NCBI RefSeq assembly: GCF_016858305.2
Contig: NZ_CP074436.1
Span: forward strand, 2,066,001-2,130,000
Direction: 5' to 3'
DNA from: Polaribacter sp. Q13
Lineage (GTDB): Bacteria; Bacteroidota; Bacteroidia; Flavobacteriales; Flavobacteriaceae
Length of the DNA: 64,000 nt
Positions 1,419-8,989 of this stretch are shown piece after piece. The translations under genes and the position numbers were made by a program. The notes beneath the pieces are model-generated. The model searched no databases, was not told where the DNA came from, and worked only from the letters and a program-made list of their open reading frames with translations. Numbering within the stretch: position 1 is the first letter of the stretch; every line of letters begins with the position of its first letter.

Positions 1419-2546
1419 TTACTCCGCCTGCTTCAAAATTTCATGACCCGCTTTTAACAGAACAACATCTTTTTTCATGATTTCCACATCACCTTTCATC
1501 ATATCTTTTACCAAAGAAGCTAAATCATGCTCTGGCACCCATCCTAATTTGTTTTTCGCTTTAGAAGGATCTCCAATTAATAAATCTACTTCTGTTGGAC
1601 GGAAATAAGAAGGATCTACAGACAACACTTCTTTCCCTATTGCTACTTGAAATTCTTTATTATTACATGCAACAACGTATGCTTTCTCTGCTACGCCTTC
1701 TCCTTTAAATTCAACGTCAATACCTACTTCACTAAATGCCATACGTACAAAATCACGCACTGTGGTAGTTACACCCGTAGCAATAACCCAATCTTCTGGT
1801 GCATCTGCTTGTAAAATCATCCACATCATGCGAACATAGTCTTTTGCATGTCCCCAATCACGTTTTGCTTCTAAGTTTCCTAAAAACACTTTTTCTTGCA
1901 AGCCTAAAGCTATTTTTGCTACGGCACGCGTAATTTTTCTAGTTACAAAAGTTTCCCCTCTTCTTGGTGATTCATGGTTAAATAAAATACCATTACACGC
2001 AAACATATTATACGCTTCACGGTAGTTTTTAGTTATCCAAAAGCCATATATTTTAGCTACTCCATAAGGAGAACGAGGATAAAAAGGAGACAATTCATCA
2101 TAGAAACCTCTTTCATTTTTATTCTCTGGCATCCCTCCATATAATTCTGAAGTAGAAGCTTGGTAAATTCTTGTTTTCTTTTCTAATCCTAAAATACGTA
2201 CTGCTTCTAAAATTCTTAAAGTTCCTAATCCATCAACATTACCTACGTATTCTGGAGTATCAAAAGAAACAGCAACGTGAGACATTGCCCCTAAGTTATA
2301 AATTTCATCTGGTTGACATTCTTGAATGATACGCGTTAAATTCATCGCATCTGTTAAATCTCCATAATGCAATTTTAATCTTTGATTTGGATCATGTGGA
2401 TCTTGGTATAAATGATCAATTCTGTTGGTATTAAAAAGAGAAGATCTTCTTTTAATACCATGTACTTCATATCCTTTTTCTAATAATAACTCAGCTAAAT
2501 ATGAGCCATCCTGTCCTGTAATTCCTGTGATTAATGCTACTTTCAT
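1419..2546 (-). CDS. gmd: GDP-mannose 4,6-dehydratase
   Basis: Converts GDP-D-mannose to GDP-4-keto-6-deoxymannose in the cytosol, the first step to GDP-L-fucose. The 375-residue extended SDR has the NAD(P) loop GITGQDGSY at residues 8-16, STSELYG at 131-137 and the catalytic Y161-x3-K165 (YGVAK). The RRSSLFNT stretch after the Rossmann fold is typical of Gmd. Length is normal for the family. Its partner GDP-fucose synthase lies upstream on the same strand, but the two are separated by a four-helix-bundle gene embedded in repeats. The base just 5' of the ATG already belongs to the TTCG-word repeat, so its leader and ribosome-binding region are made of repeat DNA. Confidence 0.96.
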
Positions 2547-2667
2547 ATCGTTTTTCGTTGTTCGTTGTTCGTGGTTCGTTGTTCGTTGTTTGTGGTTCGT
2601 GGTTCGTGGTTCGATTTTCGATGACCGTGTTTCGTTACTCGTTGGACGATAAACGATGGACGATTTT
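2547..2667. repeat. TTCG-word repeat, left flank of the four-helix-bundle gene
   Basis: The whole spacer between gmd and the next gene is built from short words ending in TCG (GTTCG, GGTTCG, TTTTCG) in irregular succession. It contains CGTGTTTCGTTACTCGTTG at 2626-2644, found identically at 3043-3061. A 28-base unit at 2641-2668 recurs at 3121-3148 with two mismatches. It touches both the gmd start and the stop of the four-helix-bundle gene. It looks like quasi-tandem repeat DNA rather than a fixed-period array. Confidence 0.9.
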
Positions 2668-3012
2668 TCACTTTAGTGATTTTATTAATTTATACAGCAT
2701 CATCTTAATTCTTGTACAAAGATCTAATAATTTCGTATACTCATCATTAGAAATATACCCTAAATCTTTTGCCAAAAATAATTGATAATTAGCTTCTTCT
2801 AAAGAGCCTTTCGCAATATATAAAAATTGAATAAACTCCTTTTTATACTGCCTCCCTTGCCCTTCTATTATATTTGTTGGAACACTACTAGAACTTCTTC
2901 TTACTTGATTGGTTAACCCAAATTTTTCTGAGGAAGGAAAGTTATTTGAAACCTGGTATACATCAAGAGTTAATTGATGCGCTAGTTTCCAAACTTGTAG
3001 TTTACATTCCAT
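2668..3012 (-). CDS. Four-helix-bundle protein (23S rRNA intervening-sequence / Avd-like family)
   Basis: 114 residues, matching the TIGR02436-type family by [13 protein letters not shown] at residues 7-19, [18 protein letters not shown] around 31-48, EGQGRQ, and [15 protein letters not shown] near 84-98. The family includes the S23 protein encoded in the 23S rRNA intervening sequence of Leptospira and is related to Avd, the accessory protein of diversity-generating retroelements. Biochemical function of the stand-alone forms is unknown; they form basic helical bundles that may bind nucleic acid. It interrupts the gmd-fcl pair, lies on the same strand, and both its borders are TTCG-word repeat DNA. 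No reverse transcriptase or variable repeat pair is present, so this is not a DGR. The family call is strong; the role is open. Confidence 0.9.
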
Positions 3013-3146
3013 TTTTTTGTTCGATTTTCGTTGTTCGTTGGTCGTGTTTCGTTACTCGTTGTTCGTTGTTCGATGGACGGTAAACGGCAAACGATAGACG
3101 ATTTTCGTTACTCGATTTTCGTTGGTCGATAAACGATAGACGATTT
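3013..3146. repeat. TTCG-word repeat, right flank of the four-helix-bundle gene
   Basis: Repeat DNA fills the spacer between the four-helix-bundle start and the fcl stop. In the same order and orientation as the left flank it holds TCGATTTTCG (3021-3030; also 2611-2620), CGTGTTTCGTTACTCGTTG (3043-3061) and the 28-base unit at 3121-3148 that ends at the fcl stop codon. The two flanks are therefore direct, diverged copies. Confidence 0.9.
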
Positions 3147-4097
3147 TTAAAGCTTGACTTCTTTAAAGTTTTCTATATTCTCTAAAAACCAAGTATAGGT
3201 TTTTTCTATTCCATCTTCCAATTCTGTAGAATATTGCCACCCTATCTCTTTCATTTTCGAGACATCCATCAATTTTCTTGGCGTTCCATCTGGTTTTTCA
3301 GAATCCCAAACAATTTGTCCCTGATGTCCTATTACTTTTTGAATGGTCTCTGCTAATGCTTTAATGGTAATGTCTTTTCCTGAACCAATATTGTATAAAT
3401 ATTCTGGCAATTCATTTTCTAAAGCATACACCACAGCTTCCGCCATATCATCTACAAATAAAAATTCGCGCATTGGCGTTCCAGTTCCCCATAAAACAAC
3501 ATCCGAATTATTATTTTTAGCATCATGAAATTTACGAATCATAGCAGGCAACACATGTGATGATTTTAAATCAAAATTATCATGTGTTCCATATAAATTG
3601 GTAGGCATTAAGCTTACATAATCTTTCTGAAATTGCTTTCTAATTGCTTGACATGCTTTTACACCTGTTATTTTTGCAATCGCATACCCTTCATTTGTTG
3701 GTTCTAAAGAACTTGTCAACAAATGCTCTTCTTTTAAAGGTTGCGGAGCAAACTTAGGGTAAATACAAGAACTCCCTAAAAATATAAATTTCTCAATACC
3801 CGACTTTAAAGCACTATCAATTAAATTGTTTTGAATTTGCATATTTTCCATCAAAAATTGATACGGAAAATCGTTATTTGCTAATATTCCACCAACTTTT
3901 GCAGCTGCATCAATTACAACTTCAGGTTTCTCCTTTTTATAAAAATCAAGAACTGCTTCTTGTTTTTTTAAGTCTAACTCTTTACTCGTTTTACCAATTA
4001 GGTTAGTGTACCCTTTTTTTTCTAATGTTCTCCATACTGCAGAACCCACCATACCTCTATGGCCTGCAATATAAATTTTAGTATCTTTTTTCATCAT
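3147..4097 (-). CDS. fcl: GDP-L-fucose synthase
   Basis: Epimerises and reduces GDP-4-keto-6-deoxymannose to GDP-L-fucose using NADPH, directly after Gmd in the pathway. The 316-residue SDR shows the nucleotide loop GHRGMVGSA at residues 12-20, GSSCIYP at 108-114 and the catalytic Y138-x3-K142 (YAIAK). GTGTPMREFLFVDD further on is a family hallmark. The start could be the first or second Met of MMKKD. Genes on both sides are separated from it by TTCG-word repeat spacers rather than by the short gaps normal in this operon. Confidence 0.95.
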   Translation of the reverse strand: MMKKDTKIYIAGHRGMVGSAVWRTLEKKGYTNLIGKTSKELDLKKQEAVLDFYKKEKPEVVIDAAAKVGGILANNDFPYQFLMENMQIQNNLIDSALKSGIEKFIFLGSSCIYPKFAPQPLKEEHLLTSSLEPTNEGYAIAKITGVKACQAIRKQFQKDYVSLMPTNLYGTHDNFDLKSSHVLPAMIRKFHDAKNNNSDVVLWGTGTPMREFLFVDDMAEAVVYALENELPEYLYNIGSGKDITIKALAETIQKVIGHQGQIVWDSEKPDGTPRKLMDVSKMKEIGWQYSTELEDGIEKTYTWFLENIENFKEVKL

Positions 4098-4119
4098 TTT
4101 TTTTCTTATCTGATGTCTC

Positions 4120-4205
4120 GTTGTTCGATGTTCGTTTTTCGTTTTTCGTTTTTCGTTTTTCGTTTTTCGATATTCGTTTAAGCGGTAAACGAATATCGAA
4201 CATCG
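4120..4205. repeat. TTCG-word repeat with 5 x CGTTTTT microsatellite and perfect hairpin
   Basis: Five exact 7-base units CGTTTTT run from 4133 to 4167. They are followed by CGATATTCGTTTA (4168-4180), a five-base loop, and its exact reverse complement (4186-4198). An outer pair, CGATGTTCG at 4126-4134 and CGAACATCG at 4197-4205, can close an alternative larger structure around the microsatellite. It fills the spacer between fcl and ugd. Confidence 0.9.
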
Positions 4206-4215
4206 GAAATCGGTT

Positions 4216-6769: not shown

Positions 6770-7705
<936 letters not shown>

Positions 7706-8989
7706 TTATAGTGATTTATCTACATGCTTAGAATCTAAAAAATTCTTAACATCATATACAATTGATTTTTCTTTTTTAATTTCTACAAAATTCAAGTCTT
7801 GAAATTCTTTATGCGCTACCACTAAAATAACGGCATCGAATTTCTTTTTAGGTAAAACGGTACTCGAATCTAACTGGTATTCTTTTTGAACTTCGTTTGC
7901 ATTTGCATATGGATCAAAAATGGTTACGTTTGCTCCATATTCTTGTAACTCATAAATAAGATCTACCGCTTTTGTGTTTCTAACATCCGGACAGTTCTCT
8001 TTAAAAGTAATTCCTAAAACCAATATTTCAGCTCCTTTTACTTCAATATCACGCTGAATCATCAATTTAGCAACTTCAGAAGCTACATATTTGCCCATAC
8101 CATCATTTACACGCCTACCTGCCAAAATAATTTCTGGATGATACCCATATTCCTGTGCTTTTTGAGCCAAATAATAAGGATCTACTCCAATACAATGCCC
8201 ACCAACCAAACCTGGTTTAAATGGTAAAAAATTCCATTTTGTTCCCGCAGCTTCTAAAACATCTTGCGTATTGATACCCATCAACCCAAATATCTTAGCC
8301 AATTCATTTACAAAGGCAATATTGATATCTCTTTGAGAATTTTCAATCACTTTTGCAGCTTCAGCAACTTTAATTGTAGGAGCCAAATGAGTCCCTGCAA
8401 TAATTACAGATGCATACAAGTTATTCACTTTTTCTCCTACTTCTTTGGTTGAACCAGAAGTAACTTTTAATATTTTTTCTACGGTATGTTTTTTATCACC
8501 TGGATTAATTCTTTCCGGAGAATACCCTACAAAAAAGTCTTTATTAAATGTTAAACCTGAAACTCTTTCTAAAATAGGCACACAATCTTCTTCTGTAGCT
8601 CCAGGATAAACCGTAGATTCATAAATTACGATATCTCCTTTTTTAATAACACTACCAACGGTTTCGCTTGCCTTTATTAAAGGAGTTAAAACGGGTCTGT
8701 TATTTTTATCTACTGGCGTAGGCACTGTAATTACAAAATAATTACAATCTTTTAACTCTTCTAAATTAGATGCAAAAAACAATCCTTTTTCTCCAGAATT
8801 CTCTTCAACTATTACATCTAGTAATAAATCTTTAGAAACCTCTCTAGTTTTGTCTTGTCCTAATTTTAATTCTTCTATTCTAGGCTGATTGATATCAAAA
8901 CCAACAACAGCATACTTTGTTGCAAAAAGTCTTGCTAATGGCAAACCCACATATCCTAAACCAATAATACCTATTTTAATTTTACTCAT
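7706..8989 (-). CDS. UDP-N-acetyl-hexosamine 6-dehydrogenase (WbpA/TviB type)
   Basis: Oxidises C6 of a UDP-N-acetylhexosamine to the uronic acid with NAD+. The 427-residue chain has GLGYVGLPLA at residues 11-20, the ESTVYPGATE loop, and GGHCIGVDPYYL with catalytic Cys266. This last motif separates the UDP-HexNAc group (WbpA, TviB, WecC) from UDP-glucose dehydrogenases, which read GGSCFPKD as in the other dehydrogenase at 4216-5538. Its start overlaps the end of the epimerase gene by eight bases, so the two are probably translationally coupled. Confidence 0.92.
   Translation of the reverse strand: MSKIKIGIIGLGYVGLPLARLFATKYAVVGFDINQPRIEELKLGQDKTREVSKDLLLDVIVEENSGEKGLFFASNLEELKDCNYFVITVPTPVDKNNRPVLTPLIKASETVGSVIKKGDIVIYESTVYPGATEEDCVPILERVSGLTFNKDFFVGYSPERINPGDKKHTVEKILKVTSGSTKEVGEKVNNLYASVIIAGTHLAPTIKVAEAAKVIENSQRDINIAFVNELAKIFGLMGINTQDVLEAAGTKWNFLPFKPGLVGGHCIGVDPYYLAQKAQEYGYHPEIILAGRRVNDGMGKYVASEVAKLMIQRDIEVKGAEILVLGITFKENCPDVRNTKAVDLIYELQEYGANVTIFDPYANANEVQKEYQLDSSTVLPKKKFDAVILVVAHKEFQDLNFVEIKKEKSIVYDVKNFLDSKHVDKSL

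Follow-up and report, generated by a model that had tools for sequence, protein, structure and literature searches.

A locus of Polaribacter sp. Q13 raises the question of why a small gene for a four-helix-bundle protein should lie between fcl and gmd, with repeat DNA filling the space on either side of it. The locus belongs to a 64,000-nucleotide stretch of the genome (RefSeq assembly GCF_016858305.2, contig NZ_CP074436.1, positions 2,066,001 to 2,130,000), hereafter the window, and a sequence-only reading had seen in it a small mobile or recombining cassette whose protein acts on the repeats. Comparison with other genomes leads us to regard it as likely, on balance, that genes of the TIGR02436 family form, together with the word arrays on either side of them (7 nt per word, sometimes 8), one two-part mobile element, which is probably a general form of the 23S rRNA intervening sequence (IVS). 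In window coordinates, the locus reads as follows.

1419 to 2546, minus strand: gmd, the host gene downstream of the putative element (TIGR01472, above its cut-off).
2547 to 2667, minus strand: array of TCG/ACGA 7-nt words with period 7, from the stop codon of the four-helix-bundle gene to the start codon of gmd.
2626 to 2644: 19-mer, identical to that at 3043 to 3061.
2641 to 2668: 28-base unit reaching the stop codon of the four-helix-bundle gene, with two mismatches to 3121 to 3148.
2668 to 3012, minus strand: four-helix-bundle gene of TIGR02436 and PF05635 by profile matches, 114 aa, of the MECKLQVWK... subfamily.
3013 to 3146, minus strand: TCG/ACGA word array from the stop codon of fcl to the start codon of the four-helix-bundle gene, a direct copy of 2547 to 2667.
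3043 to 3061: 19-mer, identical to that at 2626 to 2644.
3121 to 3148: 28-base unit reaching the stop codon of fcl, with two mismatches to 2641 to 2668.
3147 to 4097, minus strand: fcl, the GDP-L-fucose synthase-like host gene upstream of the putative element (NF047922, 467.6 bits, below the cut-off of 500).
4098 to 4215, minus strand: third, gene-less direct copy of the array at the fcl/ugd junction, found by TCG/CGA scan and alignment (ugd being our label for the nucleotide sugar dehydrogenase gene adjoining fcl).

Profile scores confirm that a TIGR02436-type gene splits the gmd-fcl pair: its open reading frame (ORF) reaches 137.4 bits against TIGR02436 (NCBIfam, cut-off 24) and 139.7 bits against PF05635 (Pfam, cut-off 33.8). 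The PF05635 match makes it an S23p-type ORF like those of 23S rRNA IVSs, although it sits between fcl and gmd and not in a 23S rRNA helix. All three genes are on the minus strand, and both gaps are filled from stop codon to start codon with seven-base words (TCGTYTA, ACGAACA and similar). The blocks first noticed in the two gaps, the 19-mer and the 28-base units in the same order and orientation, proved exact in their coordinates, and alignment extends the likeness to direct copies from end to end (local score 61 direct and 12 inverted, against a shuffled maximum of 29.5); TCGATTTTCG stands at 2611, 3021 and 3112. No further copy of the 19-mer was found on either strand of the window, and a scan of its 64 kb for TCG/CGA pairs at 7-nt spacing returned no arrays beyond the three listed.

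The sequence-only reading had proposed checking whether TIGR02436 genes have flanking word repeats more often than other genes, and they do, far more often. Matches to the profile occur in 48 of 58 genomes of the genus; the genus sample comprised 139 loci from the listed places, with lower-scoring and unlisted ones left out, and a hidden Markov model placed the gene in 137 of them, the other two being the two pieces of a split gene. For each locus we counted the canonical 8-mers common to the 100 bp before and the 100 bp after the gene, with flanks swapped between loci as the null. Own flanks share 5.50 8-mers on average, compared with 1.28 (sd 0.16) after swapping, whereas a control set of 289 other genes, drawn from twenty stretches of 20 kb within the genus, shows no excess at 100 bp (1.83 own, 1.85 swapped). 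The window locus has 28 8-mers in common between its flanks; its mean against the other 136 downstream flanks is 1.05, and none of them reaches 28. Over 12 settings z was at least 13 for the TIGR02436 set and at most 2.2 for the control genes, which are flat at 60-100 bp and reach 2.2 in one setting and about 2 in two more (150-250 bp flanks). The swap is a conservative null because orthologous sites share words, which raises the background. Dinucleotide shuffles, tried as an alternative null, had low power (z above 3 at 19 of 137 loci and at 2 of 287 controls) because such shuffling keeps the low complexity of arrays, and they were replaced by flank swapping.

The observation is general and not peculiar to the window. 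A scan of a genome collection gave 80 loci from about 20 named phyla, many of them Bacteroidota, and 78 were usable (the flanks of archaeal L255 and L261 were too short); here own flanks share 4.56 8-mers and mismatched flanks 0.50, with three or more shared at 43 of 78 loci as against 5.3% of mismatched pairs. For Gammaproteobacteria, searched with a piece of XCC0516, the values are 5.68 and 0.71 (28 of 32 rows, one gene occupying two rows). Across these three samples (137 loci, 78 loci and 28 rows) flanks share words 4 to 9 times more with their own partner than with a mismatched one, at z of 14-27. With 243 loci of genus, family and phyla joined by single linkage into 51 neighbourhoods, the largest holding 113, one locus per neighbourhood gives 4.55 versus 0.64 (sd 0.21), a large effect on average. 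Small ORFs of 80-160 aa show no flank sharing (n=51, z 0.3). Ten of 46 matching plasmid records were viewed, nine of them cyanobacterial, and by eye most carry words of the same kind; in Nostoc edaphicum AGTAGGGAGTAGGG precedes the four-helix-bundle gene and CCCTACTCCCTACTCCC follows it.

The Q13 genome itself, one contig of 4.42 Mb, has ten TIGR02436 matches at nine loci, one gene being in two pieces. By eye most of these loci have their own words on both sides: TCG/ACGA at L001, GCGAAAAGC at L003, GTGTAATCG at L004 and GAAGAATGAAG at L008. These four also stand out among the eight loci entered in the flank test, with at most 1 of 136 foreign flanks sharing as much. Two other copies appear to be decaying and have weak word flanks by eye: L005 (G000:C1:54300-54623) contains two in-frame TAG codons, and L009/L010 (G000:C1:2182113-2182428) is split over two frames.

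What the loci have in common is a spacing and a setting. Self-matches of 4-mers at distance 7 make up 4.9% in the genus, 8.4% in the family and 7.2% in the phyla, compared with 1.3% in control flanks. The signal recurs at 14 and 21, genus and phyla have a smaller peak at 8 and 16, and the 7-nt period is independent of word sequence. Inverted sharing between flanks exceeds direct sharing at 72 versus 43 genus, 13 versus 7 family and 39 versus 13 phyla loci, although in the family mean sharing is higher for direct (3.43) than for inverted words (2.10), and the two arrays of the window are direct copies. Where a neighbour could be called on either side, the two are co-directional with the gene at 135 of 135 loci in the genus, 29 of 29 in the family and 67 of 76 across the phyla, as against 142 of 270 control genes; these counts come from loci that are not independent and from a caller allowing ORFs cut by locus ends. 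A stricter caller gives 120 of 126, with six downstream neighbours opposed, and counting by neighbourhood gives 45 of 50. So strong a sense orientation fits an RNA step or a need for transcription from a host promoter.

The host junctions themselves are functionally unrelated, among them fcl/gmd, groES/groEL (L168), an iron-sulfur assembly gene and sufB (L024), cas6/cas4 and ribonucleotide reductase genes. Methionine synthase is one gene in the reference profile; at L174 the four-helix-bundle gene lies between two parts of it (metH), which cover profile residues up to 320-337 and from 316-336. Apparent splits of the same kind were seen at L176, L179, L182, L184 and L189, the neighbours being named by profile for L174. 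On cyanobacterial plasmids L191 and L196 have the gene between cas6 and cas4 with long word arrays, and around L165 (G324:C1:563385-564507) three copies of a four-helix-bundle gene follow one after another with a 398-bp spacing.

Related genomes differ at the same junction. Among 30 gmd loci in the genus, 21 have fcl directly upstream, the window's own included, and their junctions are empty in 9, filled by an array without gene in 4 and occupied by a gene in 8. Eight of the empty sites have gaps of 5-19 bp and the ninth a gap of 46 bp without words. By eye, three of the gene-less arrays are made of TCG words and one of another word; four of the gene-bearing sites have the window's subfamily with TCG words and four have other subfamilies with other words. 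Close relatives that lack the gene and keep a repeat, another check put forward beforehand, are found in G034 and G040 (gmd 96% and 95% identical to the window's), where a TCG array and no gene of the window's subfamily stands at the junction. At most tight empty sites fcl ends, by eye, with extra codons (for example KEVKLEAN) in place of the KEVKL seen at array sites, L295 and the wider empty site L299 being exceptions.

The variation extends along the window. Neighbouring genes were matched to relatives by BLAST at 68-87% identity, and the gene-less array at 4098-4215 corresponds to a gene with arrays in relative G050 (L015). Two further junctions are closed in the window and hold a gene with arrays in relatives.

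7703 to 7705: empty site, a gap of 3 bp in the window; in relative G051 (L017) the junction holds a gene of the window's subfamily and TCG arrays.
8982 to 8989: empty site, an 8-bp overlap of two ORFs in the window; in relatives G009 (L013) and G043 (L011) the junction holds a different four-helix-bundle gene and TTAGGG-type words.

Neither outcome that the sequence-only reading had named as its refutation came about. Empty, array-only and full sites, judged by comparison, thus give good support to the suggestion of a small mobile cassette. They also bear on a different explanation, in which protein and intercistronic arrays form a host regulatory cassette that tunes translation or mRNA stability of the downstream cistron, its presence and absence being ordinary gain and loss. 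Such a cassette would suit arrays in sense orientation that fill the stop-to-start gaps of co-directional genes, and translational regulation by TAACTGA heptamers was proposed by MacGregor in 2015 (PMC4679880). Yet the junctions have no function in common, 13 of the 21 fcl-gmd junctions do without the gene, and where one is present it can be of another subfamily with other words; we consider this explanation improbable.

Arrays follow the gene from genome to genome. The window's subfamily occurs in 7 of 57 genomes of the genus, and a strict four-word TCG pattern is found in all seven, compared with 6 of the 50 others (1 to 3 matches each; Fisher p=6.5e-6). In the Q13 genome all ten strict matches fall within 1.7 kb, at the gene and the neighbouring junction. 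The reversed pattern, meant as a control, turned out to be itself an AGC-type word and is present in 11 of 57 genomes, untied to the window's subfamily (2 of 7 versus 9 of 50). In the downstream flank of L163 (G439) TCG words continue into a longer unit, CTGAGCTTGTCGAAGTAGAGTCGAGAT, which is another repeat type.

TCG words are also found in frame inside gmd. A loop of the gene was readable by pattern in 19 of 30 gmd genes, and 15 of the 19 have no insert; G050 (L304) has one of about 36 residues, G051 (L289) one of 13 and G009 (L307) a degenerate one of 16. All three genomes have the cognate four-helix-bundle gene, and the window's gmd is without insert. The same loop in L294 (G042) holds an in-frame insert with ATTTCGACCAGGGTGGAGAAATC, another repeat.

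Words and proteins also vary together among close relatives. For pairs from 252 loci without a common neighbouring gene, we compared the cosine of word content with protein identity: the mean cosine is 0.025-0.047 below 50% identity, 0.049 at 50-55%, 0.074 at 55-60%, 0.166 at 60-70% (n=129) and 0.325 above 70% (n=29), about half of the last group being the window's own subfamily. The nearest non-syntenic relative exceeds the average cosine by 0.090; over 500 permutations the excess was 0.000 (sd 0.007, maximum 0.025). The link crosses phyla in the pairs Adhaeribacter L200 and Pseudanabaena L191 (67% identical, cosine 0.40) and cyanobacterium L216 and Methylobacillus L206 (64%, 0.63); L216 and L190 (67%, -0.01) are a counter-example. 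At what is apparently one orthologous site, L024 and L198, both sides change word in concert by eye. The link is confined to close relatives and carried by the binned and nearest-partner results, and it is as compatible with a unit travelling together as with a word that is set by the protein and drifts. Adenine mutagenesis was considered by eye as a source of the word variation and dropped.

These patterns weigh on a further alternative, that the arrays are ordinary unstable repeat DNA arising first, in which four-helix-bundle genes merely land or survive. Repeats of 7 nt can grow by slippage, gene-less arrays exist, and 400 kb of control DNA holds four strong period-7/8 arrays, all in stretches without a four-helix-bundle gene; one such gene, L150, does lie inside a control stretch, which lowers the contrast. 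Four in 400 kb is nonetheless rare, TCG arrays go with the subfamily, closely related proteins have similar words even at different sites, and both sides change word together at L024 and L198. We disfavour this alternative and hold it to be unlikely.

The kinship of the protein raises the prospect of a retroelement. The sequence-only reading had pointed to relatives that serve diversity-generating retroelements (DGRs), and of this link the distant homology stands: the window protein matches PHROG 3206 at E 6e-12, and Avd, the accessory protein of DGRs, is a distant homologue, the structures 4DWL and 2GSC being described as alike (PMC10053308). The rest does not carry over, as the gene scores 28.4 bits against bAvd, below the cut-off of 40, and so falls outside DGRs as defined by a bAvd above cut-off with a reverse transcriptase. 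Word flanks are also missing around true bAvd genes (E<1e-15; 16 loci, 13 of them usable), where own and swapped flanks share 0.46 and 0.33 8-mers (z 0.7). An Avd-like protein could still work with a reverse transcriptase in trans, for which the sense orientation in transcripts would be apt. But 23 of 45 good genomes of the genus have no match to RVT_1, 15 of these carry 3 to 13 TIGR02436 matches, and G009, G050 and G051, the genomes with word inserts in gmd, have no RVT_1 match either; we rate this account as very unlikely.

A RAYT/REPIN-like system driven by Y1 transposases in trans would likewise set a gene between repeats of its own (PMC3116915), and genomes with PF01797 do have more TIGR02436 matches (mean 6.9 versus 2.9). 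Against it, 7 of 18 good genomes without PF01797 carry at least 3 TIGR02436 matches (up to 11), and G004, G017, G020, G021 and G029, with neither Y1 nor RVT_1 matches, hold 3 to 11; we give this explanation hardly any credence. REPIN/RAYT systems remain instructive as a parallel, with gene-less hairpin copies and proposed co-evolution of repeat and protein (PMC3116915), and cognate repeats stand on both sides of the window gene too. The differences are a PF05635 gene with no Y1 (HUH) transposase, degenerate 7-nt runs in place of one palindrome, and copies found near the gene.

The closest known counterpart is the 23S rRNA IVS of Leptospira and Coxiella, described as a selfish element with inverted repeats and an ORF of the same family, PF05635 (PMC4990558). 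Directly before the ORF start codon the Coxiella IVS has variable numbers of tandem GACAGAT heptamers, and an older proposal of IVS mobility is cited in the same source (PMC4990558). The Coxiella case looks like the architecture of the fcl-gmd locus placed in an rRNA gene. IVSs interrupt 23S rRNA and are excised by RNase III, whereas the loci described here stand between diverse protein-coding genes and have gene-less copies and lineage-specific words. Searches of open-access literature gave no paper that connects the protein family with word arrays beyond the Coxiella case.

Tandem 7-nt words are themselves familiar from intergenic DNA, such as TAACTGA and GGGAATC of Beggiatoaceae, Bacteroidetes, Xanthomonas and cyanobacteria (PMC4679880, PMC4692102). 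For transfer of TAACTGA arrays "no mechanism is evident" (PMC4679880), and heptamer repeats are said to be generally unassociated with mobile elements (PMC4692102). As a run of degenerate direct repeats of 7-nt period in intergenic DNA the window locus is a heptamer array, with words other than the published ones; the passages cited name no partner gene (PMC4679880, PMC4692102), whereas here a four-helix-bundle gene accompanies the arrays. The words TAACTGA, GGGAATC, GGGGAYT and GACAGAT are nearly absent from the flanks sampled, and therefore the likeness is one of kind and not of word. The STRR arrays are a further example of tandem 7-nt words. For cas loci, 18 23S_rRNA_IVP genes have been reported, often beside Cas4 or Cas6 and among CRISPR-Cas-associated functions (PMC3936711); we find the order cas6, four-helix-bundle gene, cas4 as well, and here it looks like landing between cas genes. 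Padloc gave no match.

Several results weigh against a mobile element of this kind. No target duplication of the kind left by a MITE or DNA transposon derivative was seen by eye at the fcl-gmd sites, nor was any transposition or donor-target pair seen, and presence and absence are also compatible with loss. Only 23 of 51 neighbourhoods lie above the 95th percentile for mismatched flanks, some half of the loci lack significance when taken singly, and the array-strength threshold behind the control count above is reached by only 24 of 274 genus TIGR02436 flanks. Within the Q13 genome L002, L005 and L007 are weak in the flank test and L006 shows nothing (eight of nine loci, L009/L010 lying outside the test). 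In gene-bearing genomes strict TCG matches keep within about 10 kb of the gene and are not scattered, in a search that covered copies of the strict pattern. Over all pairs the rank correlation between protein and word similarity lies slightly below zero (Spearman -0.04), since word sharing is confined to pairs of more than about 55% identity, and below about 50% word similarity is at background. Cyanobacterial L190 and L192 have neighbours on the opposite strand. RNA folding, judged on four of six stretches with L283 and L192 set aside, is mixed: the array at 4098-4215 folds back on itself (z -4.3), while 2547-2667 (0.16) and 3013-3146 (-0.54) do not stand out, and because single arrays are not uniformly strong folders, pairing of one array with another may be more important than a single tidy hairpin. 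As for the published heptamers, TAACTGA occurs twice or more at 3 of 279 loci and GGGAATC and GGGGAYT at none; GGGAATC was not found beside XCC0516-like genes, XCC0516's own locus being outside the sample. Our confidence, both in the two-part element and in the new class of element considered below, is lowered by the absence of published heptamers beside these genes and by the fact that only 4 of 8 loci of this genome pass the flank test.

In the two-part element as we envisage it, the non-autonomous part would be the array, in which degenerate words follow one another, often in both orientations. A complete element would have a four-helix-bundle gene between such arrays, in sense orientation and filling the stop-start space of co-directional genes, with gene-less arrays at nearby sites and sometimes in frame inside a gene. 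The protein would form a homopentameric ring, each protomer reading one 7-nt word on the single-stranded sense strand, be it RNA or DNA. Binding of ring to words would join the array arms; host replication or repair would place a copy of the unit in a new junction and make the two arrays alike, and each protein lineage would keep its own word for a while. TRAP-like ring proteins read spaced repeats and offer an analogy for one word per protomer. We know of no catalytic activity in PF05635 proteins. The window protein matches the sequence of the XCC0516 structure (2gsc) at E 2e-16, and XCC0516 is a homopentamer of four-helix bundles (PMC4990558). That the protein acts on the repeats is plausible, with indirect support, since similar words go with closely related proteins and arrays go with the presence of the gene. 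Gene presence is independent of a recognisable resident reverse transcriptase or Y1 transposase, which is why we favour a ring that leaves the copying to host replication or repair. The association, the period, the orientation, the three states of the sites and the covariation of word and protein among close relatives are observed; from them we infer mobility as a process, the binding, the copying step and the choice between RNA and DNA.

The element is not to be filed as an IVS, since it lies outside 23S rRNA, as REPIN/RAYT, since it has no Y1 transposase, or as a DGR, since no reverse transcriptase is needed for its presence; by analogy it would work like IVSs and REPIN/RAYT systems, and it may include IVSs as a special case. 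More tentatively, and as something we find possible while leaning against it, it could represent a categorically new class of mobile element, one whose movement calls for no transposase, recombinase or reverse transcriptase. In such a class a pentameric ring would read 7-nt words on single-stranded intercistronic sequence and drive the copying of arrays into neighbouring stop-start junctions, with a private word per lineage, and 23S rRNA IVSs would be the rRNA-borne form.

Word-flanked TIGR02436 genes across many bacterial groups point to a widespread, largely unrecognised mobile element. This places the unexplained 23S rRNA IVSs within a wider class of elements, and it suggests a kind of protein as candidate partner for heptamer arrays, which have been on record for decades with no mechanism, even if the published words were not found next to the genes sampled. 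A reason is further offered for the occurrence of genes annotated as "23S rRNA intervening sequence" or "four helix bundle" within cas, groESL, metH, suf and polysaccharide gene pairs, in which they may have been taken for functional partners. The pairing of word and protein poses a clean, testable question of specificity.

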